Below, in pieces: positions 395 to 23,100 of a stretch of DNA of 24,827 nucleotides (positions are counted from its first letter, which is position 1; every line of letters starts with the position of its first letter). This stretch comes from Chromera velia (lineage: Eukaryota > Sar > Chromeraceae), in NCBI GenBank assembly GCA_018398765.1, contig JAHBMJ010005877.1, positions 37,604 to 62,430 on the forward strand. Reading direction: 5' to 3'. Both the position numbers and the translations under genes were made by a program. The notes beneath the pieces are model-generated. The model made no database searches and was not told the origin of the DNA. It saw only the letters and a program-made list of their open reading frames with translations.

Positions 395-1367
395 GGGGTG
401 ATTGACCGTCTGGGCATTCCCTTCGAAAAATTGTTCAAGAACTTCAAACTGGTCCCCAACCTCAGCAAGGTAGGTCAGTCAAGCAGGCAGGCAGCTAGCT
501 GGTTAGGCAGAATGCTGTAAGCTCAGAGGGTACAGAAGTGATTTATTTGTTCCTCTGTGCCACTTCGTAGTCCACTCTCCATGCACAGATTTTCTTTACT
601 GTTACATGCGAGTCGCAATCGACGTGCAAGCTTTTTTGTCCCCGGCCGTAGAGGGAAAAGACCATCTTTTCCTGCTGACCATCTTTTCTTTCGCTCCCTC
701 TTTTTCTGCTAACTGCAATGTTGCAGATCCAGGGCGTGGTTCTGCAAACGATGGAAGAGGTGGTTGGAGCACAGTGGTCAGTCAGTCAGTGAATCAATCA
801 GTCGATGCGCCCCCCACAAAGCGACAGACAAATTAAGGAGGTCTCCGGTTGGTATTCATTCAGGAGAACTGAAAAAGGTCGCCTGTCTATTCTTCCCATG
901 CACACGCCAGCAGCAGCAGCTTGGCGAAGCACACTACCTCATGCTTGTGAAAGTCCGCAACGCCCAGCTAGGTTCTTTTCCTCCAGAGGGAAAGTGAAAG
1001 TGTGTCTAGACAGACGGTGGCGCTACGGGCAGGCTCAGGAGGATAACAGGAAAAGAAAAGGAATCCTTCATGCATGCTTGGCAGCTTTCTCCATCGTCAC
1101 TCGATCGTTACATTTCGCTCTTTTCTCTTTTTTTCGGAGCTGCTCTGCTCTGCTCTGCTCGGATTCCTCCCTCCCTCCCTCCTTCCCGACCCGGGACGAG
1201 GACCACATAATGGCATACTGAGCCTCTTATCTTATCGATTTCCTCCTTGATTAGTTTATGATTCATGCATTTTTATAATTAATTTTATTTTGGTGCAGGG
1301 ACGAGGACCACATGATGGCATGGGAGTGGCTGTGGTCTCTGGCGACTGTGGAAAGGAGCGTGAACGC
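395..1367 (+). other. Globin domain 1, C-terminal half (F/G/H helices)
   Basis: Residues 1-64 read [17 protein letters not shown], then a short stretch, then [18 protein letters not shown]. The first motif has the spacing G-V-x7-F-x3-F and the second W-x7-W. Globin 2 of the same protein has exactly the same spacings (GV-x7-F-x3-F at 268-281, W-x7-W at the G-H turn). The spacings also match the usual FG corner, G helix and H helix of non-vertebrate globins. The proximal His should sit four residues before G1, in an exon to the left of the window, so heme binding by this domain cannot be judged here. Three small exons (395-469, 727-776, 1299-1367) encode it. Confidence 0.72.
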
Positions 1368-1565
1368 GTGAGTCAGACAGAGGGAGAGGGGGGTAGGGGA
1401 ATTCATTCGGCTCTGTCTGTGTTTTGGTCTCTGTTTTCGTTCTTGCGTGGTTCGGTGTCCCTTTTTTCTCCTTCACCCTCGTGTGTTTTTTTCTGCCTTC
1501 CGCTCTCAGTGAGTGCGTGCGTGTGTGTGAGTGTATGTATATATATATATATAGATATATACATA

Positions 1566-1597
<32 letters not shown>

Positions 1598-4500
1598 TGT
1601 GCATTTGTTGCGTGTGAACGATGAATGAAATTTTCTTCTTCAGGTGGCGCTCCACCGACCGCGACATTCTTCTTCAATCCTGGCTGGCAGTGGAGAAGGT
1701 GATCTTGCAGGAGATTGCGGACAACGCTCCGGAGGGCGCAGGGCGGGATTTCTTTGCGGAGGAAGTTCAGCCTGGAGCCGTGAAGAAGGCGGGGTTTGCA
1801 GTGGACGATGATGAATTGGGGGAGGGCGGGGGGAGTGAGAGGCAGTCAGGGAAGTCAATGAAGTCGACTAAGAAGAAAGGAGGGGGAAACATCTGGCAAA
1901 GGTTCTTTGGGAACAACGGGGGGGGGGCGGATGATGACAACAAATCGGCAATTTCGGGGGCATCAAAACAGCGCAAGTCCAAACAGACTGAACAACTCAA
2001 AGCGAGACTGAGTGAAGCACCCAAGGTGAGCAAGTGCAGGGGAGGGGGGGCGGACACCTCATCCACAGAGAAACTTAGACACAGCAAGAAAAGAAAGGAG
2101 GGAGGAAGAGGGAGGATTCTGATGGTGAATTCATTTTTTGACAGAACAAAAATAGGGTTCTTTCACTCACTCTCTCGATCCCTCTCTGGTTGTCCCACTC
2201 TCCCTTCATATTTGACTCAGATCACTCTGTCCGCTCAATGCATCAGTCATAAAACCAACAACCTCCAGCTTTGTGGCATTTCAGAACGAATTAAGATCGC
2301 TCTCCAAAACGACCGGGCCAGGTCTTTCCATGCATTTGTTCCTTCCTCTTCACCTTCTTTCTTTCACTTCTTTCTTTGCATGGCTGGACGAGGTCGGATG
2401 AATTTAAATAAAGAAATGAAATGACCTCAAATGATGCAGGTGACATGGGAAGTCGCCGAAATCTTCGCACGGAAGATCTTCAAAATGTTCGCCACAGACG
2501 CGCCAACTGTCGACTCCATCTTCGTCAAACACAGAGACGTGAGTCTGTCAGTCAGTCAATGAATCAGCTAGAGATTCCGACAGACAGTCAGGCAGCCGTC
2601 TGAACGGACTGATCGATTTGACGAATCCATGCTGTGAAAACAGTGAACCATCAGAACATGATGAGAGTGTACCTTCGAAGTCGCATAACCAGCTGAGTGA
2701 GTCTGGCGTGCTGCCTTCGACCTTCGGGCTCTCTGTAGCTTTCTTCAAGCGATCCTTTTCTGTTGCCTCCATCTCTCACACCAGCCATCCGGCATGTTTT
2801 CGTGATCGTCAAATTCTGCTTTTCTGTCTGCAGGCGTACACCCACACGGTCCAGGGCATCCTGAATCGACTCCTCGCGTACATCAACGACCCTCATGTCA
2901 GTCAGTCCGTCAGTTCTTCGCATTCATTCCTTCCGCAATTAATCTCTCTTTTTGAATGAATGGGTTCATTATCGGGGGGTCCCTGCCGGCGTGCCTCGAT
3001 GCCCTTCCTCGCTAGCTGGAGGAGAGACAATGCAGGGGATGGTATCCGAGGTACGAGCTGTCGTGGGTGGGACATCACTCACTGGCATTCACCGCACGAT
3101 CGTTCATTCATTCATTCATTCATTCATTCACACTGCAGTTGCTCTGGATTGAAGTCATTTCTTCTTCTACTTATTCCATCTCTCTTTCTTTCCTCTTCTC
3201 TCTCTCACACACACTCTCTCTCTGTGTCTGTGTGTGTGTTTGTGTATGTGTGTCGTCTCTCTCTTCATGACGTCATTTGGACCAGGTGCTATAGATCCAG
3301 GCCGACGATCGAGTTGGCAGAATGTTCTTATGGTCACTTTCAATATTTCTTCATTGCCGCTATGATCAATATTTCTCTTACACGTATATGTGCATGCATA
3401 CATAAATACATAAGAATGTATGTATATTTGAATGAATGTTGTTCCTCTCTCTCTCTGTGCGTCTCAGTTGCTCTGGATCGAGGACGAAGAACTGGCGCTT
3501 CGACACATCAAATACGGAGTGATGCCGGGAGACATTCCGATCTTCAGAGAAATCTTCCTGGCGACTTTCCAAGATATTGCCGCAGGGTCGTGGACAAAAA
3601 GGTGCGTCGGTCTGTCTGGCTGACTGTCTGATTAATCCCTCTCTACCTCTTTTTCTTTCACACACACACTACACTCACTATCTTTTTTTGTGGCAAGAGA
3701 CTCTGCCGATCCTCGCTTCTATCTATCGATCTAGGATCGATCTATCTGTCTATCTATCTTGGAAGGATCTATCGGTCGGTCTGTCACTATGTCGGTCTGA
3801 CTATCTTTCTGTCCACGTATCTTTCTTTCTGCCTATCTGTTTCGCTTGGATCTGCCCATTGTTTCCTGTGCACTGTATGTGTGTATGTATGTATGTATGC
3901 ATTCATGCATGTATGTAGGTATGTGTGTACGATTTTCCCCGACTTCACGCACGCAGGTACAACGACACCTGGAAGAAATACCTTTCCATTACCCTCTCGG
4001 GGCTCTCTGAGGTTTTGGTCTCTGCCCTCGACCCTGTGGCCAAGGCACTCATCATCCATTCGCCCTCAGATCTTATGCAGGGCCTGAAGGAGGCCCCCAG
4101 GGGACGACGGGCAGAAATGGGTAGGTCTTTTTTTTTTCTTTTTCATACAGAATGGGTAGGTCATAGGGATGGAAGGAAGGAAGGAAGTAGGGGGACAAAC
4201 AAGGGAATCAGACTGGAGGGGGGAAGGGGGATGGGTGGACGGGGACAAGGAACGTGGCGCTCCCTCGTGAGTTCTGTCTGCTGCAGACTGCATGAAACGG
4301 CCCAAGAGTCTTCAGAGTGTGGAGCATAACTGGAAAGAGAGCGTTTTTCATTCTCCTTCTCTCTTTAATTCTCGATAGGCTTTTCATTTCTCTTCCTCTC
4401 CTTCTCTCCCGTGCTTCCTTCCTTCCTTCCTTCCTTCCTTCCTTTATCCCCTCCTTTGTCTCTTTTCTGGCCACATTCCGAAAAACTCGGTTGCCTGCGC

Positions 4501-7500
4501 GGAAGAATGACGTCTCTCCTTCCAGTAACACACAGAGATCTCTTTTTTCGTTTGTGTTTCCTTTTGCGTCCTTTCCTTCCTTCCACCCTTCCTTACCTCG
4601 TGGCTGCAGCGTGCCAGATTGTGATCAAGGGAGAGTCCAAACCAGTGATCTACTGGTCAGTCGGCCTGCGTCCCTGTGTTTCCTTTCTGTGTGTGTAGTG
4701 CGTCCGTCGACTCGTCTGTTTGCCCGTCTTTCGGCCTTTTTATACTTTTGTCGGTTTCTCAGTCGGCTGGTCTCTCTGTCTGTATACGAAGCTGTCCTTT
4801 CTTTGTTGGTTTGTTTGAATAAGCTTTCTTCATTCTCTCCATTCCATTGCTCGATTGAGTACTTTATTGATGGTTTTTTTTTTGAAGGAAAAACTTCTTT
4901 TTTAATTTCTTTCTTCTGATGGTCGATGTGCCCGTACATGCATGCATTTTAGGATGGGTACAGGATGATCAAGGTATGCATTCATCTTCATACATTATGT
5001 GTAAACAAGAACTCTGTATGAAATGAACACAACACATGCATGCATTCATGCATTTTTGGATGGATGGATGGATGGATCGATGGATGGATGGATGGATGGA
5101 TGGATGGATGGATCGATGGATGGATGGATCGATGGATGGATGGATGGATGGATGGATGGATCGATGGATGGATGGATCGATGGATGGATGGATGGATGGA
5201 TCGATGGATGGATGGATGGATGGATGGATGGATGGATGGATCGATGGATGGATGGATGGATGGATGGATGGATCGATGGATGGATGGATGGATGGATGGA
5301 TGGATCGATGGATGGATGGATGGATGGATGGATGGATGGATGGATGCAGGATGATTGAGGCAGGGCACACGAAGCTTGTGAAGATCCTCATGCGAGACGT
5401 TTTGGCAATTCGGGCCAACAGATCCGGAGTCTGGTGGGGGGGTTCTACATTGTGGGAGTGGTACGGCAAGGATCTGGTGAAGACGATCTGCCAGATGGCC
5501 CCTGAGGCCTCCTCAGACCTCCTCGACGGTCATATCTGGTGCTCCGATGTGGTGGGTTTCTTTTCTTTTCTTCTTGTCTTTTCTGTTGTTTCACTCAAGC
5601 TCCTTTCGGTTTAGATCGCTTCTTCTTCTTGTTCATAGGAAAAGAGGGAAAAGATCGACTTATCTGATTCGGGGGGGGGCGGTGAAGAGAGGTAGTGCAA
5701 AAAACGGAAAGAGCCTGACGCAAACCGAAATTGCTCTTCTTTCCACAGTTATTGCAATGACACGAAGAGCAGACTGTTAGAAGCACAAAAGATCTTAATG
5801 CCTCCGTGCATGAACTGCAGGTCGTGCGGGGGAAGCGTCGCGTGATCTTCTACGTCCGCGATCTGTGGGGAGACTCTACTCGTCTGACTTCCTCAGGAGA
5901 GCCGATGTACAAGTCCGTTGCTGAGTCCCCTCTGGCCCTTCTGGTTAGGATGCACGACGTGAACGTGGCCTCTCACCCTCTGGTGCAGTTCCTCGTCGAG
6001 AAGAAATGGACGCTGTTTGTGAGGAAACAATTCCTCATGCAGGAACTTATGGGCCTCTTTCAGGTCAGCCAGCCGGCCTGCATGGGAAGAGAGAGGTGCC
6101 CAGGTGCATGATTGTGGTTGTCTGCATCTTGGATTGATTTTGTGTCTGCATGATCGAGTCCGTTTCCTCGTTCAAAACAAACAAAATGATTAATGCAACT
6201 TTGGCGAGTAGGATTGCGTGACGGTGTCTGGAGGGACGGGTGTTGGAAAGTAGAAAAGAGAATGGATGATCCAAAGAGAAGAGGGAAGCGCTTTGGTGAA
6301 GTGGTCAGACGAGGGTAAACTCTTCTTTTCTCTTCTTGCGTGGGGAAACAATCTGTGTGGCCACGTAAATGAAAAAGAAACGGTTGTTGTGTGACGTACA
6401 TTAATGCTTCTGAACACATTCATTCGGCTCACATGATTGCCCCTGAATGCACAGATTCTGGCTCTGTGTCTCGGCTACGTGTGGCTTGCGGATTCGCAAC
6501 CGGGGGCTGCGTTCGTCTGTCGGGCGATCGTGTGGACAATTGCTGTGATCTGGTTCGGCATCTTCATCTCCAGATGCCACAAACAAATCCAAATCAAAAT
6601 GTACCGGTAAGTGGGTAAGTGCACGAGTATTGTTTTTAGTGTCCGTTCTTGACTGCAAAACTAGTCCAGCAAAAAAAGAGGGAGCCGCGTGCACTCGTCT
6701 GCTGTATGCAAGCACGCAGGATAGAAACGAGTGGAATCTTTCGAAGGGAGGCACGTGCATATGTCAGAGCGATGCCCTGCCAGTCGTCGGATATTGCAGT
6801 TCTGTGTCAAAATTATTCATACATACATATTCTGGCACGAGACCGGTGGATATCTCCTGAATCATTATCGTCATCATGTTCTGTCCTTCTTATTTTCCCC
6901 CTGACCTTTGTCTTTCGGCTTTCCGTCTGCCTCCATGCATGCAGCCCCAAGCTAGCGGGATTCGACGTGAAGTGCGAGGTGCCGGTCACTGCGGCGTCTT
7001 CGTGGAACGTCCTGAGAACCTTCGCTGCCCTGTTCATGATCGTCATCGCAGTGGAGGAACTCGTGCTCAACGGGGCGGCAGGGATCACTTCAGGCAAGGT
7101 GGGCTGTCGAGTGAGTGCATTTAAATTGTGTTCGGGCGGGTGAGTTTTGGGGGGACAAACTAGTGAGTGGGCGAATTCTGTAGGGCAAAATTCTTGGAAG
7201 ACCGTTACGGTTGACAAAGAACTTTGTTTTGTGTTCGCTTCACGTCTTTGCAAAAGAAAGAGAACAACTGCTGTCTGGTTGGATGTACCAACAGGCAATC
7301 TGAAAATGTAGTTTTTCAAAGCTGAACTAAATCAGGTTCGTCTCCTTTTTTTTTTCTGGACTTTCTCTCCTTCCTCGTTTCTGCTGATGCCCCTTCCTGA
7401 ATCAACGATTCGATGAACGTATGGATGGATGAAGAAATCCATGGATGAATGAATTAATGCAGTCGATCATCTCCCAGGAACCAGACGCCACCGCGATCCT

Positions 7501-9412
7501 GAATGCCTTCGGAGTCCTCATTCTCTTCATGTCCTCCCTCCAGCTGATGATGGCTGATCCACGACTCTCCGAGCTCCTCCTCGGCACTCAGGTGCTCTTG
7601 AACGTTGTTGCCAAATACACCGTCATCCTGGTCAGTCAGTCAGGAAGGATCACAGGCAGGCAGGTAGACAACTAATCAATCACTCAAGCAGTAGACTAAG
7701 AAAGCAAGTCGAGAAGGAATGATGCTTCGCTGAAAAGAGAACACCTCATCGAATGGGTCGTGCCGTGCCTGTGGTTTTCTTTCTGTGTGCGTGTAACTCC
7801 GCAGAGAAAGAAAGCCCTCCTCATCCTCATCAGCGCTTTCTTTGCATCAATCAGACGACAGAAAAAAAGAGAACACGCGATCGATCGATCGGAAAAGAAA
7901 TTCGGACAGTGACATGGCAAGCAGGCAAATTGAAAATTCGTTGTGTCTGTGCACCTGCCTGCGTGTCTGCGTGTTTGGCTTCAGGGTTTGTTCGTGATTG
8001 CCTTCTCTGTGCTGATCACGTTGATCGCATCTGACACCGCGGCATTCGCAACCTTTGAGGTTGCCCTCGCAAACATGTCGGCCCTCGCACTGGGGGCATA
8101 CGAGGTCGACCTTTTGGAGGCGCAGTCGGCAACATCAGTGAGAGTAAGTCGACCGATCAGCCAGGCTGCCCGAATGCTCGTGGCGGGAAGCAGCGTTTGT
8201 GGTCCAATGTTCGCGCATGCCTTTCCATTGGAGAGAGAGGTGAACTGAGGGAAGGAAGAAATCAAGTCGTCGAACGAATTCATCTGGGTACTTTGAATGG
8301 CCCAATTTCGACCTCCCCTTCTTGTCATCTTACTCTTTCTATCTTCGATACTGTCTCTGCCGTGACCAATTGCTGTCACTCGCTCTGTGCCTTCTCCAAC
8401 TTTTAACATGTTGCTAGCGCTGTTGCTTTTACTACACTGTTTCTGTTCTTTTGACTCTTGTGCCTGTATGTCTTGCCGTTGTGTCCTGAGCAGATCGTGC
8501 TGGTGCTTTACTCTCTGGCGACAGCGCTTCTGCTGATCAACGGTCTGGTGGCAGTGATGATCGCTGTGTATCAACAGGAGAGGGGGGACATGGAGAAGAA
8601 GGCAATGCTCGGTCTGGCAGAAATCGTGACGGAGTTCGAGTCCGTCAACTCAACAGAGTTCCTCAAAAAGGTGAGTCAGTGAGTAAGTGAGTGAGTGAGT
8701 GGGGTAGGTGTGTTAGTCTGTCTGTCCTTCCGTCCGTCTTTGCATGAGTGTTATGAAGGGACTCAGTCAGACTGAAGCATGGATCGAATCGTGACTGTAA
8801 AGATGCCTGAAGACTGTTTTTACGTACGAAGATTGACAGCAGACTCTTCAGCAAATTCTCTCCGAGCATGCAGAGGTCCAAGGTGATGCAGATGGACAGG
8901 AACGAATGAATGAACGAATGAATGAGTCAAGGAAGGAAGGAAGGAAGGAAGGAAGGAGAGGCGTCTTTTTCAATCCGTTCGCGATGTGTGAACGCAAATG
9001 TATATAAATGCCCGAATGACTGTCTGTTGTATTGTTTTTCTCTGTGTCCACCTCCTTACCTGCCTGTCGGTTTGTCTGTCTGCCTGCGTGTTTGCATGAT
9101 TGCAGATTTCGGACAGTTTGAATTTCTCCCGGCGACTCTCCCTGGATGACGTCAAAGAGATCGGGCCCGACGGGGGGATCGAGGCCTTGGTGGACGCATC
9201 CACATTCACTGTACGTGAGAATATAAATAGAATAAGCATGTAGAACTGATCTAAGACTGTGCATCGAGATCTTGCATGGTGTATGGGAGGTGCGTTCGTG
9301 TGCGTGTGTGTGTGTGTGTGATTTCGTTAATTCCAAAAGGGCATCTATCGCATGGTTCCCGCCCAATTGCCTCGTTACCTGCCTACCTGCCGGCCTGCCT
9401 GCCTGCCGTTCC

Positions 9413-9445
<33 letters not shown>

Positions 9446-10840
9446 TTCTTTCCTTCCTTTCTTTCTTTCTTTCTTTCTTTCTTGTGTGTATGGGCAGATA
9501 AAGAGAGCATTCAAGCAGGTTCTCCTGTCACCCGACCAATCAAATCCACATACTCTCCTTCGCCGCTTGTCTGCCTGCCTGTGAGTTTCTTCTTCTTTCG
9601 TCTTTCTTTGCATGCAGGTGCCTGGGTATACAGAGAGGGGCAGAGCAAGCAGAGTCGAGAGATATGACAGTGAGGAGGGCCCAGAGGTCTGTCGGTCTGC
9701 GTGGTTGTTTAAAAGTCTATTCTCGTCTCTTTTCTTGTTTGGACAATTCATTTAGTGTCAGAAGGCTTTCAGCGGAGCGAAGACAATAAGAGAATCCTTG
9801 CTCTCATTTTTCCCCGTTCATTCGTGTGCACTCATTGAATCAGAAAAAAGACAGGCTGATCTTTGTTATGCTTTCTTTCGAGTTTTGCGTAGAGATGAAA
9901 GATCCACACGGCTTTCCTACATGCTTAGTCAGGCCTTTCGTTTCTTTTCTCTTTGTTTGTTTGTTTGTTTGTTTGTTTGTTTCGCTTCTCTGTGTGGAAG
10001 GATGGATGTGTTCTCTGACTTGGCTGCATGGTGGTGATTTTCTCTTTCTCTGATGGATGATGCATTTTTTGTTCCGTCTTAATGTAGTCTTCCCCGTCAG
10101 CATATACCTGTGGTCCATTTACTTTCATTGCATCGTTCGTGCTTCAAAAGAACGTCTGTCTGCCCACTTGAATGCAGGCTCCGTGGCCAGACGAGAGCGC
10201 AGGAGCGGGAGGTGCGGTGGAGGGTGGGGGCCAGAGCGTGTACACAGAGAAGGCGATGACTTCCTTGAGAGAACTGGAGAGAGAGGTGAAGAACATGAGG
10301 GCTCCTGCCAACAGGCTCTTTAGATACGTACGTTTTTCTGCCTTTAGTTATGCCTTTTTGGTTAAATGCTTCACTGTGTTACTCTGCACAATTCATGAGT
10401 TTTTACCACTTTTTTCTGACTTCACGCGTTGCGTTTTGTCGCTCTGCAAGTAAACTTCTTGTTTGTCTATTTGACCTTCTTGCCGGTGTGTCTGTGTGTC
10501 TGGGTCGCTCCGAGTTGCTCCATCGAGGTGCTCAGTAGCTTGTGACTGATTGTTTCTCACTCTTCTTTCTTTCAAGTGTTTGTTTTTTGATTTGTCGTCT
10601 TTGTGAAATCCCCATGCACAGCCCGATTTATTTCCGCATGCGGTTTCTGATTCTCTTTTTTTGATTTTGTTTCTGATTCTCTTTTTTTGATTTTGTTTCT
10701 GATTCTCTTTTTTTGATTTAGCCTGATTTGCCCCCCGTCCGTCCGTTCAGGTGAAGAAATCTGCGAAGAACAGACCCCTCGAGGAGATCGACGAGAACAG
10801 GTCTCATGCCACACGCAGCAGCCAGGGGGTTGTCCTCTGA
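395..10840 (+). CDS. Tandem globin - TRP-like ion channel fusion protein (5' end outside window)
   Basis: Exons, all GT-AG: 395-469, 727-776, 1299-1367, 1644-2025, 2440-2538, 2834-2896, 3036-3050, 3468-3601, 3957-4120, 4610-4655, 5350-5551, 5821-6063, 6455-6606, 6945-7098, 7463-7630, 7985-8143, 8494-8670, 9106-9210, 9618-9686, 10178-10327, 10751-10840. Phases agree at every junction and the joined frame has no stop before TGA at 10838. Residue numbers below count from the first visible codon (G1). Order: globin 1 C-terminal half (1-64), globin 2 (66-315), linker (316-480), six-TM TRP-like channel (about 490-760), cytoplasmic tail to 921. From family knowledge, the globin should bind heme and the channel should pass cations at a membrane. 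Gating by O2, NO, CO or redox is my inference. The start codon is not in the window. The 15-nt exon 3036-3050 and the exact donor at 5548 or 5551 are the least certain joints. Confidence 0.85.
1193..1216 (+). repeat. Partial copy of an exon start inside the preceding intron (copy A)
   Basis: It matches 23 of 24 bases of 1298-1321, the acceptor G and first 23 bases of the exon at 1299. It sits 105 bp upstream, in intron 777-1298. The single difference turns the exon's ATG into ATA. There is no AG just before it, so it should not act as an acceptor. Confidence 0.85.
1505..1605. repeat. Compound (GT)n / (AT)n microsatellite
   Basis: A gtgtgt tract, an ata/tat core near 1538-1562, then gt again. 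It lies in intron 1368-1643 and creates meaningless CVCV and IYIY reading frames. Confidence 0.9.
1750..2025 (+). other. Low-complexity insert within globin domain 2
   Basis: This part of exon 1644-2025 encodes residues of about 101-192, rich in Gly, Lys, Ser, Asp and Glu, with GGG and KSTKKKGGG runs and a poly-G stretch at 1918-1926. It separates helix A from helix B of the globin. Globins normally join A and B with only a few residues. The frame stays open across it and the exon ends in phase 0 at a gtgagc donor, so I read it as translated. Confidence 0.65.
3036..3050 (+). other. Probable 15-nt microexon (residues GMVSE)
   Basis: An acceptor (aatgcag, ending 3035) and a donor (gtacga, from 3051) flank 15 in-frame bases that add five residues between the globin E and F helices. 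Without it the E-to-F spacing equals that of myoglobin, with exon 2834-2896 joined straight to 3468, so it may be skipped or be an alternative exon. Confidence 0.45.
3101..3130. repeat. (ATTC)n tract
   Basis: About seven attc units in the intron between 3051 and 3467. Confidence 0.85.
3136..3154 (+). repeat. Partial copy of an exon start inside the preceding intron (copy B)
   Basis: CAGTTGCTCTGGAT followed by tgaag matches the acceptor CAG and start of the exon at 3468 (3465-3483) at 17 of 19 bases. It lies 329 bp upstream. Unlike copy A it keeps a usable-looking ctgcag acceptor. Confidence 0.7.
4417..4444. repeat. (CTTC)n microsatellite
   Basis: Seven cttc-type units in intron 4121-4609. 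Confidence 0.9.
4961..4975 (+). repeat. Possible exon-start copy (copy C) upstream of the GGAT array
   Basis: CAGGATGATCAAGG resembles the acceptor and exon start at 5347-5360 (CAGGATGATTGAGG), 12 of 14 bases. Because ggatg is common in this intron, chance similarity is possible. Confidence 0.35.
5057..5346. repeat. (GGAT)n array with GATC variant units, abutting a splice acceptor
   Basis: About 290 bp of ggat repeats. Nine units carry a C (positions 5078, 5114, 5130, 5162, 5178, 5202, 5242, 5274, 5306), giving GATCGAT. The spacings are 36, 16, 32, 16, 24, 40, 32 and 32 bp, mostly multiples of 8, suggesting block duplication. The array runs straight into the gatgcag acceptor at 5349. Open reading frames across it (WMDG or HPSI repeats) are artefacts. 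Confidence 0.95.
6020..8670 (+). other. Six-TM TRPV/TRP-like ion transport domain
   Basis: Hydrophobic segments in order: S1 [18 protein letters not shown] (exon join 6063/6455), S2 [15 protein letters not shown]3 [21 protein letters not shown]4 [21 protein letters not shown]5 [19 protein letters not shown], and S6 [20 protein letters not shown] running into MIAVYQQ. Between S5 and S6 is a TRP-style pore turret and re-entrant helix, [21 protein letters not shown]4 has no Arg or Lys ladder, so a voltage sensor is unlikely. The post-S6 helix [21 protein letters not shown] resembles the TRP-box region. From family knowledge this should assemble as a tetramer and pass cations. Ion selectivity cannot be predicted with confidence. 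Confidence 0.78.
8090..8107 (+). other. Predicted pore selectivity segment (LGAYE)
   Basis: Residues 708-712, L-G-A-Y-E, followed by V-D (713-714), fall where TRPV channels carry G-(M)-G-D-L-E type filters. The acidic E712 and D714 are candidates for the ion ring. Assigned by position relative to S5 and S6 only. Confidence 0.5.
8874..8882 (+). other. Possible 9-nt microexon (residues RSK)
   Basis: A gcatgcag acceptor and a gtgatg donor flank AGGTCCAAG, phase 0 on both sides, inside intron 8671-9105. Including it inserts RSK between FLKK and ISDSL without breaking the frame. There is no other support, so I leave it out of the main model. Confidence 0.2.
8917..8956. repeat. (AATG)n then (GGAA)n tracts
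   Basis: Tetranucleotide repeats in intron 8671-9105. Confidence 0.85.
9415..9483. repeat. (TTTC)n microsatellite
   Basis: About 17 tttc units with a tccttcc interruption, in intron 9211-9617. Confidence 0.9.
9954..9982. repeat. (TTTG)n microsatellite
   Basis: Seven tttg units in intron 9687-10177. Confidence 0.9.
10647..10720 (+). repeat. 26-bp tandem repeat, 2.8 copies
   Basis: Unit starts ctgattctctttttttgatt at 10647, 10673 and 10699. It is T-rich and lies 30 bp upstream of the last-exon acceptor (10750), so it acts as a long pyrimidine-rich tract. Confidence 0.9.
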
Positions 10841-17193: not shown

Positions 17194-20100
17194 GCTACCT
17201 GCAGCGACTCATCGTTAAAGGCAAGGCAGAGAGGTGTCACTGAAAAGAATGCAGACTTCAACCAAACAAGCAAATGACGGAAATTCGATTCAGAGTAAGA
17301 AATAAATGTAAAAAGAAAGGCAAAGGGGGAATTCAAGAAAAAGGAAGGGACCTACAAGGAGTCTCATGAGTGCGGTGGTGACGAATGAGATGGCGAGAGG
17401 ACGAAAGAAAGAGTCGATGAGGAAACAGAAGCCGGAAGAGCTGAAGAATCCCTTCAGGTCTTCGGGAGTGGCCGCGTACACAAGAGAGAACATGAACAGA
17501 TAATAGGCGGAACCCAAGATGACCATTAGACCGAACACCCGTCCCACCCACTGGAGAATGAAGGCTCTCCTTAAATGCTTTTCCCTCTGTGCAGGAGGAA
17601 GAAGCCACAGCTGCTTTCTTTTGTTTCTTGTGAGGTTCAAATCCCCACGGAGGGGAGGCTTGCTGCTTCTTCTTTGTCCTTCGTTCGTTTCTTCCATGCT
17701 CATTTGTTCGGGTGTCTTCAGGACCTCAGATGACCTTAAAGTTCCCCCCTGTCTCCCTCTCATGCTTTCTTTCAAATTCGATCGAGATGAGTGTTCTCTG
17801 TCAGACAAGTTAGCACTTGAGGTTCCCATATTACATCTCGAATGCTTTTGGCGAAGTGCCTTTTTGGTTCCCTCCTCTCCCTCTCCTGTGACTCTGGACC
17901 GCGAGCGATTCGGACCCACACGGGTGGCACTGCTCAAAGATGATGACTGGAGACGCACGAAGCGCTCGGACGTAAATCTGCACTCAGTCAGGAAGGTAGA
18001 GGAGCAAAAAGAAGGAAAGGGGCTTATGAGAGTACATATAGATTGATGGAAAAACATGACTACCAGAGTGACTGCGTTTCCCCCTGCAGAAGTCAGCTTG
18101 CAAACTGATGCATGTATTTGGACGTGCAGATACGTCCTCATCAGGACGCACGCCCAGAAAGAAGGTTCTTTGAGCTTGTCAGACAATCATCCCGCCGTTC
18201 CACAAAATTTCAACTCTTCTACTTACCTGCTGAGTCTCCCGGTGACTTGTCTCATCATGCGCCGCCTGTTCTCTTCCTCCTGTCGAATCAAAAATTTCAC
18301 TCGGGATATTTTCAGTTGCCTCCCGCTTTTGAGATCTTCAAGGAGTGGAGTCAATGGCGCAATGAAGGGAGGGCGGCGGTAGATCAGTCCTTCGATGAAG
18401 GTCAGAGGGATGACGGAGACGATCTCTGAAAGGAAGGTCGCGAAAATGACCCGAAAGTTCCACGAAACGAAAATGGAGAAAATGCCCAAGAGAGCAGAGA
18501 AGATCTCCTGCACGTCTGTGTCTCCAGGATTGTACCCAGTGTTCTGCCCGTCAGACCCGAAAAAGACTGCTATCACCTGCACGCACACACGGGTCGGAGC
18601 ATGAATGAACTTCCTACTCACTTCATCGTTGAAGTGATCAATTGAGTGAATTCTCAGCAAAACCGATTGCGAATTGCAGGATGCACATACCTGCTCTCAA
18701 GTTCATGCAACGCAATTCGGCATAGAGAGAGCAGCTGCTTTCAAGCAACCCTACTGAAAGATGCCATCAATTTTTTTCTGTATTCATCTGCATTTCTCCC
18801 TCCGTTCTGAATCCAGACTGACGTACCGCCAGGGAGAATGCGATGTCTGCACAGGTCACGATGGCCTTATCCAACCTGGACACGCCCTCTTCCGAGCAGT
18901 CGACCAAATAAACAAACGGATGGTCCCTCATAAACGATCTCCACAGAGATCTTGGAGTGTTCCAAAGACAGGGTGTCACTGTCTTTGCCATCGATTGGGC
19001 GGCAATCTCTCGGCGAGTCCACTCTGCCGGCTTTCTTTTGTCTGCCGCTTCCCTCATCCTTCTCAGCCCCTCAGAAAGTTCGGAAGCAAAACTGTCGAGG
19101 TCTCCGCAGTCGTCATCCTCTTCCTTGCCTCCTCGCAGCTGGAGGAGAAACCTCTGTTGTCCGACTTTGCAGAACAACTGCAAGACGATTTTTTCTTCCT
19201 CTCCCTCCGTCTCTCTCTCTCGGTCTTCAAGAGAAGAGGCCCTCCCTTGCTCCGCTTTATCTCTTGGAGACACACGGACAGGACAGCTCTTGACGTGCAG
19301 GACCCGTTTGAAGGGAATGAAGAAAGCGTCCTTCTTCTCAAACACCAACGAACGCACGCAGGGAGGAAGCACACGACTCGGATGAGGAGCATCTTCTGAC
19401 GGGCAATCGTCCTCCTCACTGCGCGTTGGCGACCTGCGAACGAACTGAACAGAGGCACAAAAGGGAGAGTCGATTGGGAAACTCTTCAGATCAGCCGCAG
19501 AAAGCGAGATGCAGAGAAAAGGCGAAGACACACGTGCTGGCGAGATCACATGCAGGGAAACTTGAGGATGCATGGTGAGGCAACACATACTGACTTGCTT
19601 CTACACGAAATCGAAGTCGAAAGATCCAGAAAAGACCGACAGACAGACATGGAAGTCAGTGAGCCAAAACATAGACAGGAAGAAAAGGCAATCGATCGAT
19701 CGGGAGAACTCTCGTTCCATCCGTCCATTTTCTTCCTGAATTCGGCTGAGGTTTTCTCTCTCCAACAGAGTGAGATGCCGGTTTTCTGTAGCTCTACGAG
19801 CATACATGCCTGCGTGCCTGCCCTTCCTGTCCGACCAACTGAGCGTCTTTCTGCCCTCATACCTGAGAGAGGGAGTGGTCATCTCTCCCCAGCCTGACAG
19901 ACTGATTGATAGATGGACTGACTGACTGCCTGACTGACCTTGATACTTGAGTGATCGACAACGGATGCAGAGAGTGAGATCTCGATGCCCTTTTCTAAAA
20001 CTCCCCCTTCTTCTTCTCCCTGAAGATTCTCCGTCCCCTCTTCTTCTTCTGCACCCGACACCCTCTCACCCGACCGAGAGAGACAGGGAGAGGAAGCCCC

Positions 20101-23100
20101 CTCCCAAGCAGGGAGAGAGAGGGCAGAGTCAGCAGAAGAGGGCAGAGAGAAACCCAAAACACGCACGGTGACCGTGTGGCTGAACCGTCTAAAAATAAAT
20201 TTCCCCGGGGGTGAAGATTCAATCTGCACGTCGATGCCTTCACATGCCCTACGCCCTCCTAATTCCCACTCACCCCCTCTTGTGATGCCCTCATCACCAC
20301 CACCTTGCTCTCTCTCAGACTGATTGGGATCCTCTTCGGGACTGCTGGAGAAACTGATCATGCTGGGAGGGAGGGCATTTGTCTGATTGCGAAGGCCAAA
20401 TGGCTGGGGTAGAGCAGCAGCACCTTCACTTGCGACGTCTCCAAAGTCAAGGTTCTTCTCAAGCTCTCCATCTCTATTCTCCTCTTCCGTCGCTTTTGCT
20501 TTTGCTTCGGGCGTGAGGGAGCTGTGAGTGGGTATGGGGGGACGGAAGCCCTCAGGCTGCTGTGAGTGAGAAAGGATGACACCCGCGTCTTCTGGGGGTT
20601 CTCGGGGTGTGTCGGTGTTGCTTTTCTCTTCTTTTCGTTTCGCTTCTTTCCTTCTGCGGAGCCATGTGCGAATGCGGGCTGCGGCCTGCATCTCCTTCTG
20701 GAGTCTCGCGCGTTCTCTGAGTCTCAAGAGCGTTGGAAATAATGATGAGGTGCCTAGACGGACCATCACCCTTCCTTTTAGAGAAGAGTCTGATTTGAAC
20801 TCGGGCTCTGGAGGGACAAAGTCCGAAATCAAACCCTCAGTCATTCGCCATTGGTCCAAGGAAACTCTCAGAGCTGCTGTTTTCTCAGGAAATGGGGTGA
20901 CGATCCTGACGGATACACTGGACCTGACAGTGGGCGTTCTCACGATTTTGTTGTTGCACTTCGACTCATTCGTGCTCGTACTCAACTCTTCACCCTTTGC
21001 TCGCATGACAAAACCCGACTTACAAGAAGAAGAAGGAGGAGAACCGTTGGAGGAAAAGGCCAGGAAAGTCCCGTCAGCACAAAGATGCATTTCCTGATTC
21101 TCATTAGTCATCCCTGCCTTCACTGCATTTTCTGCAGCAGTTTGCAGAGTTTCGAGAGTCGAGACTTGACCGCTCTTCTCTACTTCCCCTCCTCCCTGCT
21201 GATCCTGTGTGACAAGTTCGGTGTACCAATTCTTCTTCCTCCATAGATTCAACGAGCGCCCGTTCCTCCAAAGCCCTCTGCATTTGCAGCACGAAGAGCC
21301 CACCCGGGAGAGATGCCAAGAGGGGGGGCCCTCCACTAGTCGACCTGCATGCAGGATATATAAACTTATGGAGGGAGGGGCAACAACAGAATCAAAAAGA
21401 AGAGCTGGAGGAAGATGCATCTCGCAGGCCTCTACAGACACACAACCATGCACCGGTACTACTCACACAGACGTCCTGGCACAGACCTGCACGTAGACCA
21501 TCCATCCGCTCTCACAGCCAAACAGCACGGCACACACGAACCCCGTCTCTCTCCCTCACGCACGCACACACAAGCACATGCAGAGAAGAGTACAGCGACC
21601 GACCAAGAAATGCATCATCGCCCACAAGCGCGTCCACTTTCTGTTGGCCACTCTGATGCGGCAAGGGACTCAAATGATCCAAGATGCTCGCACGGAGCAA
21701 AAGCACGAAGCAGTACAGCAAGAGTGCTGTGACTGTCCACATTGCCATATTTCCTGCATGAAAGTTTTGCGATGCAGTTTGAAAGTCAGAGAAAATCCCC
21801 ACATTCAGACTGGCGACCACTGCAACAGAGTCCGACCGCATCGACGCGAAGTCAGTTAGGTGGGAGCATCTGCAGTGGAGACGGGTCCCGTTGGAGCCAA
21901 GACCAAAGCACCCGTCGGAAGACCAATTTCCCCTGAGTTCGTCCCAAAAATGACATCCCTGCAGACAGACAGAAAGACACACACATACACACACACACAT
22001 ACACACAGACAGACAAACAGACGGATAGAAAGACGGACAGAAAGACAGACAGACAGACAGACAGAGTCGCTCAAGTCTTCTTTTTTTTTGTTTTCCGCAT
22101 GTCCTCTAAAACAGAGAGAGAGAGAGAGAGAGAAACAGGTTGAAACAACGGTGGCACAACAAGACAATCCAAGAGAAGTAGCAGACCAACCTTTCTAAAG
22201 TCGAATGGTTGACCCGCTCCCACATCTGCTTCTCTATTCTCCAACAAGAAAAGATCAACTAAGAATTCCCCCCCAACCGAAGAAGAAGCAGAAGTTAAAT
22301 CTCTCTCTGCTGCCTCTTGGTCTTCTTCCAATCTCCGTTGTCTCTTCAGTATCTGTGAATGTCCAGAGGGCATTTGGACACTGTGCCCGCACACCCTCAG
22401 ACTCACACTCGTGGTGCCCCCCCCCACTCCCGACTCTGCGTAGACCAATCCCATGGGCCAGTTGACCAGGCCACCATCGTCAGAGACGGACTGGCAGCCG
22501 CACCAGAGGGGCAGGAGAGGCCCACACCATTCTCTTCTAAAAGCGCATCGAAAAAATCACGTCCCCCCTCTACTCCCCTCTTCTGAGAAAACGCAACCCT
22601 CGCCCCTTGCGAAAAGACAATCTCCGTCTGTCCCTCTGCAGACGACGTCTGTTGTCTTTGCACTTTGTTTACTGTGATGAGAATCTCTTCAGACTCCAGA
22701 GAGGCCCCCCCTGCGCTTTGAAGTGCGGGGTCGGTGTCCAGGCGGCTCTCCGTGATCTCAGCTGACAGGGGAATCAACAGAAGAAAGAGAATAAAAAAGT
22801 CCGAGCTACCAAAATTAATTCAAAAAGTCCCTTGGGCATCAGCAACTTTGACAGGATTGACCCCAGTTACTTTGTAGACATCTTTTCACATACGGAGAGC
22901 GACAGACGCCGAGAGCGGAAAAACAGCATATATGCAGACATCAAGGCACCAAGCAAGTCGCACAGAAAGCACTTTAAGTCTCTGGTCGCATCGCCGCGAG
23001 ACGACCAGAGAGAATTTGTGTAGAACTTACTTGAATTCAATTCAGCTCGACTGACTACTTACTGACTGACTGACTGACTGAAGGCATTCACTGCACTGAG

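Follow-up and report, generated by a model that had tools for sequence, protein, structure and literature searches.

The genome of Chromera velia (Eukaryota; Sar; Chromeraceae) contains a gene whose predicted product joins globin domains to an ion channel of TRP layout. The gene lies on the plus strand at 395-10840 of a stretch of 24,827 nucleotides, here called the window (GenBank assembly GCA_018398765.1, contig JAHBMJ010005877.1, positions 37,604 to 62,430; C3948:37604-62430 in the 177.8 Mb genome searched). Residues of the window protein are numbered from the first complete codon, at 395. The joining of globin, linker, and six-helix TRP-layout channel into one predicted protein is confirmed for the window and its paralogues. 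We read these proteins, with moderate confidence, as a family of haem-based cation channels gated by gas or redox state. To our knowledge, known globin-coupled proteins act via enzymes or chemotaxis modules.

The fusion is carried by a single exon in a paralogue, C2621, where an intron-free frame matches window residues 210-512 (40% identity, expectation value (E) 2.8e-79, tblastn). The exon covers contig positions 65559-66570 on the minus strand and runs for 337 codons with no stop. It starts at globin helix C, crosses the linker, and ends in two hydrophobic segments, which spliced alignment over residues 212-553 places at the first two membrane-spanning segments, S1 and S2, although the S1-S2 part aligned weakly. 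Because one stop-free exon joins the globin, the linker, and two hydrophobic segments, the fusion is independent of splice guesses. A single exon of C3646 matches residues 473-554, connecting the end of the linker with S1-S2, and a stop-free stretch of C2033 matches residues 499-603. Intron positions were compared using a spliced protein-to-DNA aligner written for the purpose, which returns the window model and was applied to ten paralogue contigs. For eleven of the 19 window introns, one or more of the ten models has an intron of equal phase no more than one residue away; in 5000 trials of random placement, the number of recurring positions averaged 2.3 and never exceeded 9. Junction 4655/5350 recurs in seven of the ten, 5551/5821 in three, and 4120/4610 in one. 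The proposal of an initial annotation that a globin is joined in one frame to a six-transmembrane channel of TRP layout is thus supported by the gene model, the C2621 exon, the paralogues, and the family profiles described below.

The spliced gene model comprises 20 exons and 19 introns, all GT...AG, and forms a single open frame of 916 residues closed by TGA at 10840. The 5' end of the gene lies upstream of the window in a run of N, and the 8,077 bases preceding the window are N. The initial annotation was right about the single frame; its 921 residues are now 916, its 20 junctions 19, and the start of the gene falls outside the window. An exon of the first model, 2221-2321, was dropped because it broke the frame. 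The exons are as follows.

395..469 (+), exon 1, residues 1-25: F-G region of globin 2, with Phe at the F8 position in our own alignment; aligned in C3489, C1946, C3646, C132, and C2621
727..776 (+), exon 2, residues 26-42: helix G-H of globin 2
1299..1367 (+), exon 3, residues 42-65: helix H of globin 2 (AWEWLW)
1644..2025 (+), exon 4, residues 65-192: what is probably helix A of globin 3 (placed by eye), followed by a low-complexity insert
2440..2538 (+), exon 5, residues 193-225: helix B to CD of globin 3, with the CD1 Phe
2834..2896 (+), exon 6, residues 226-246: helix E of globin 3; Tyr227 (codon 2837-2839) aligned to E7
3468..3601 (+), exon 7, residues 247-291: helix F-G of globin 3; proximal His259 (codon 3504-3506)
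3957..4120 (+), exon 8, residues 291-346: helix H of globin 3 and start of the linker
4610..4655 (+), exon 9, residues 346-361: linker; the intron positions on both sides recur in paralogues
5350..5551 (+), exon 10, residues 361-428: ankyrin-like linker (a 12-residue motif and LDGHxWCS)
5821..6063 (+), exon 11, residues 429-509: end of the linker, pre-S1 (a second 12-residue motif), and start of S1
6455..6606 (+), exon 12, residues 510-560: S1 (503-521) and S2 (529-547)
6945..7098 (+), exon 13, residues 560-611: S3 (582-600)
7463..7630 (+), exon 14, residues 612-667: S4 (623-641), without a row of basic residues
7985..8143 (+), exon 15, residues 668-720: most of S5 (664-682) and the pore region, about 686-711
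8494..8670 (+), exon 16, residues 721-779: S6 (721-739) and a TRP-type helix
9106..9210 (+), exon 17, residues 780-814: C-terminal tail
9618..9686 (+), exon 18, residues 815-837: C-terminal tail (RASRVE)
10178..10327 (+), exon 19, residues 838-887: C-terminal tail (PWP)
10751..10840 (+), exon 20, residues 888-916 and stop TGA: end of the gene model

A long GGAT tandem repeat runs from about 5057 to 5346, immediately in front of the exon 10 acceptor.

Compared with the PDB by itself, the window protein gives weak matches, its globin to HGbRL (3wfw) at E 2e-4 and the protein to TRPV3 at E 0.03; strong E values come from family profiles only. A globin 3 profile built from ten members (A3) matches HGbRL (3wfw, E 6.8e-10), HGbI (3.5e-9), and flavohaemoglobin (2e-7). 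The best 60 of its 127 matches are all globins, and neither a protoglobin nor HemAT is among those 60. Four of the eight members of another family alignment, A1, match Pfam Globin (best 3.6e-7). The Pfam Globin cut-off of 22 bits is passed by globin 1 (30.8) and globin 3 (25.3) of C3489 and by C2259 (27.8), while C3449 stays below it at 20.6. In globin 3, the proximal histidine at F8 (His259 in the window protein) is present in all 21 members whose F helix was found. CD1 is Phe in the window protein, Trp in C132 and C731, and one or the other in the rows readable there.

Residues 1-62 of the window protein correspond to the C-terminal half of a middle globin, globin 2, which matches solved globins weakly (leghaemoglobin, E 0.075). 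Residues 66-316 read best as a single globin whose helices A and B are separated by a low-complexity insert of some 100 residues, helix A being placed by eye. The initial annotation had assigned two globin domains to residues 66-315; a globin is indeed found there, but the count and limits change, with the window holding half of the middle globin and all of globin 3. A further upstream globin with an F8-like histidine occurs in C3489, C1946, and, by a weak match, C132 (motifs LALRHYHYG, VALRHVHYG, and MSLRHVHYG, respectively). The C3489 model has 1306 residues and starts at a methionine in a 209-residue exon, a predicted start with which its 5' end appears complete; the C-terminal end is uncertain. 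Its order is low-complexity N-terminus, globin 1, globin 2, globin 3, linker, channel, and tail. Regarding descent from the globin-coupled sensor (S family) lineage, the A1 members and paralogue pieces match no sensor or protoglobin Pfam family at E up to 1. We provisionally file the globin-channel family as a globin-coupled protein with a new output, outside the S-family globin-coupled sensors. A frame-by-frame search of the genome returned one Pfam Globin match at E up to 0.001, an intronless 403-residue frame on C3421 (L001 1405-2616). From its own sequence, this frame reads as a flavohaemoglobin.

The channel half relates to TRPV proteins. Hydropathy delimits S1 to S6 and the pore stretch at the residues listed above. 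A channel profile from five members (A4) matches the TRPV channel Inactive (E 5.4e-12), TRPV3 (9.3e-11), and TRPV1 (1.5e-8). The match spans S5, the pore, S6, and the TRP helix, and the alignments to Inactive and TRPV3 continue past S6. A KW motif before S1 matches TRPV weakly in A4. The reversed-sequence control for the channel profile gave no match at E up to 1. The A1 alignment matches polycystin-2 (E 5e-9), and two of its eight members match Pfam Ank_2 (best E 0.0025).

The window gene is probably one member of a multigene family of globin-coupled TRP-like cation channels with about twenty genes or more. The spliced window protein finds exon-sized matches on 18 further contigs of the same genome (29-58% identity). 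Five paralogues (C2621, C132, C3489, C3646, and C1946) align from residue 1 to 754 or beyond, the models being doubtful past S2 in C2621 and around S4-S5 in C132. Searches with linker and globin pieces add five contigs, for a total of 24. Globin is followed by linker on one strand in 22 of these 24 contigs, matched by the protein or by pieces:

C3948, C2621, C132, C3489, C3646, C1946, C1757, C289, C2033, C731, C2153, C3864, C3460, C2203, C2536, C3449, C1217, C2669, C2259, C3831, C2176, C1929

The remaining two, C2168 and C2906, are matched in the C-terminal part only, as is a second place on C2536 (64333-64554). On C2669, the linker was recovered only in its first part. Every linker met in these searches, which scored the best candidates only, had at least part of a globin with it. 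Partial or complete channel models cover eight of the 22 contigs (the window, C3489, C1946, C3646, C132, C2621, C2033, and C289), and S1 was also modelled in C3449. Paralogues are 30-41% identical to the window protein and retain the invariant motifs. Among viruses and prokaryotes, the only groups covered and hence silent on other algae, no linker relative was confirmed in viral contigs (linker alignment and one peptide pattern) or genome contigs (one linker protein and six patterns). On the minus strand of C2153, three linker exons with equal scores lie 0.8-1 kb apart (6395-6571, 7350-7526, and 8183-8359); they are either a tandem array or an assembly repeat. The C1929 copy (L044) is decayed: its linker is interrupted by two in-frame stops, and of the globin just the last helix was found.

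The proposed function builds on features present in the sequence itself, namely the fusion, both homologies, the domain order, the conserved proximal histidine, and the family. We infer that globin 3 binds haem, and globin 1 probably does as well. Gas or redox gating is suggested because the proximal histidine is conserved and because of the order of the domains. TRP channels keep their N- and C-terminal parts in the cytosol. The globins would be located beneath the pore, with the pre-S1 helix and the ankyrin-like linker tying them to the channel. Exchange of the haem ligand (O2, NO, CO, or H2S), or a shift in the redox state of the iron, would move globin 3, and the linker would transmit this movement to the pre-S1 and TRP helices, so that the pore opens or closes. 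The middle globin, having lost its proximal histidine, would probably serve as a spacer or pairing module.

Several observations weigh against a haem-gated cation channel. Profile searches, envisaged in the initial annotation, recover a globin and a TRP channel when family profiles are used, but Pfam finds neither a globin nor an ion-channel match in the window protein alone at E up to 10. None of the eight A1 members matches Pfam Ion_trans at E up to 1, and the channel piece of C3489 does not match it either. Two weaker hydropathy peaks at 300-325, in the last globin helix, accompany the six membrane segments (best 1.46 versus 1.70-2.76 for the six). Globin 2 lacks the proximal histidine in all six members aligned in our own alignment, with Phe at F8, or Met in C2621. 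Phe at B10 combined with Tyr, rather than Gln or His, at E7 leaves O2 binding uncertain. The sequence itself does not reveal selectivity or gating.

The distal side of the haem pocket bears on which signal may be sensed. The spacing from CD1 to F8 equals that in HGbRL and HGbI, and the alignment is gap-free there. The available passages on these two proteins give Tyr29(B10) and Gln50(E7) for HGbI and Gln49(E7) for HGbRL, and describe helix E as shifted by three residues between them (PMC4476040). Owing to this shift, the structural place of the E7 tyrosine is uncertain. In the family, the residue aligned to E7 is Tyr in 16 of 17 readable members and Gln in C2259, with 5 of 22 members unreadable there. 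B10 is Phe in 10 of 13 rows; the others have Tyr (C2259), Thr (C289), and Trp (C2203). The alignment gains support from C2259, which retains the HGbI-type Tyr(B10)/Gln(E7) pair. As haemoglobins M show, an E7 tyrosine can act as a ligand of ferric haem. For this reason, the Tyr(E7)/Phe(B10) pair would make a redox or peroxide switch at least as likely as plain O2 binding, and by analogy with haemoglobins M the E7 tyrosine favours redox or reactive-gas sensing. A more specific version, which we put forward tentatively and regard as somewhat doubtful, would make these proteins a new class of haem-sensor channel. It would comprise more than 20 globin-TRP genes, with the distal tyrosine shifted from B10 to E7 in nearly all of them. 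The alternation between ferric Tyr-His ligation and reduced or ligand-bound haem would act as a redox or reactive-gas switch of a cation pore, giving each cell a graded set of channels.

The same pocket residues can be turned toward another explanation. The globins could be haem-free structural, pairing, or non-gas sensing modules, with the channel gated by stretch, heat, lipid, or calcium. The middle globin without its proximal histidine and the departure of B10 and E7 from the Tyr/Gln pair fit this idea, and the available passages of PMC4101818 provide a precedent in the non-haem globins of Bacillus. Against it stand an F8 histidine in 21 of 21 members with that helix, Phe or Trp at CD1 in the readable rows, and the F8-like histidine of globin 1 in C3489, C1946, and, by weak match, C132. 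We judge it unlikely, though serious enough to be kept beside the haem-gated channel. An enzymatic role, in which the globin is a membrane-placed NO dioxygenase or peroxidase and the channel merely an anchor or partner, is considerably less probable. HGbRL, HGbI, and flavohaemoglobin are the closest solved globins among the best 60 of 127 matches, as an enzyme would suggest. However, Pfam finds no reductase domain in the window protein or the A1 members, the genome has a separate flavohaemoglobin (the 403-residue C3421 frame, named from sequence), and the conserved linker and TRP helix suggest coupling over anchoring.

Two explanations question the gene rather than its function. A neighbouring globin gene and a TRP-like channel gene might have been wrongly joined across an intergenic gap, given that Pfam supports neither half of the window protein and that the fusion is read here from genomic sequence. 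This is very improbable in view of the stop-free C2621 exon that covers globin, linker, and two hydrophobic segments, the junctions kept in place and phase among paralogues, and the globin-then-linker order of the 22 contigs. Pseudogenes or assembly artefacts, for which one could cite the stops in the C1929 copy and the run of N beside the window, are hardly credible when the window frame stays open over 19 junctions and paralogues at 30-41% identity hold the invariant motifs.

Several known systems resemble parts of the haem-gated channel proposed here. Globin-coupled sensors, such as HemAT and the globin-coupled cyclases, combine a globin sensor and an output module in a single chain. The window family shares with them an N-terminal globin and a C-terminal output in one chain; it differs in that the output is an ion channel and the globin matches Pfam Globin and flavohaemoglobin-like structures. 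TRPV channels (Inactive, TRPV3, and TRPV1) and polycystin-2 share the S5-pore-S6-TRP helix unit (E 5e-12 to 3e-4), the KW pre-S1 motif, and possibly an ankyrin-like N-terminal stretch, but the S1-S4 part of TRPV is unmatched by the family profile and the pore sequence is distinct. We know of no globin in TRPV channels or polycystin-2. HGbRL of Methylacidiphilum infernorum, like the window family, has a 3/3 globin N-terminal to another domain (3wfw, PMC4476040). It aligns with globin 3 without gaps over 103 positions, with equal CD1-F8 spacing and a proximal histidine in both. It differs in its Roadblock/LC7 output and in having Tyr/Gln at B10/E7, compared with Phe/Tyr in the window protein. 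The large chimeric globins of Guillardia theta are also algal, with several globin domains per chain, but a putative cytochrome b5 N-terminus is reported for them, and the Findings section of the source mentions no channel (PMC4101818, available passages).

A globin-channel fusion was not found in the literature searched, which covered titles and the beginnings of abstracts for part of the matching papers. In the main text of the Chromera velia genome paper, words starting with globin, ion channel, or TRP do not occur, a count that would miss haemoglobin (PMC4501334). In a 2025 review, ion channels in general figure as one output that a gas receptor could have, and the available passages name no globin-channel fusion (PMC12755159). 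An annotated but undescribed example may exist elsewhere in protists. If the proposed function is correct, a single protein would directly convert a haem signal into an ion current, and gating by O2, NO, or redox state would be addressable with point mutations. Such a protein would also be a simple system in which to study oxygen sensing by channels, a question still open. The large size of the family suggests that it matters to the cell.

The sequence around the gene contains other coding stretches. On the minus strand at 21512-22105, an open frame carries a GPS motif (G protein-coupled receptor proteolysis site; Pfam E 8.5e-11, above the cut-off). It probably belongs to a larger membrane protein whose gene converges on the globin-channel gene. 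Among GPS proteins are polycystin-1-like partners of TRP-type channels. Also on the minus strand, a 527-residue open frame (19879-21462) has no Pfam match at E up to 0.1; by eye, a basic stretch in it looks like an IQ motif. On the same strand as the globin-channel gene, before the run of N, a coding stretch (L002 333-1560) resembles, by eye, a membrane protein with a RING-type CPICFE motif at its end.

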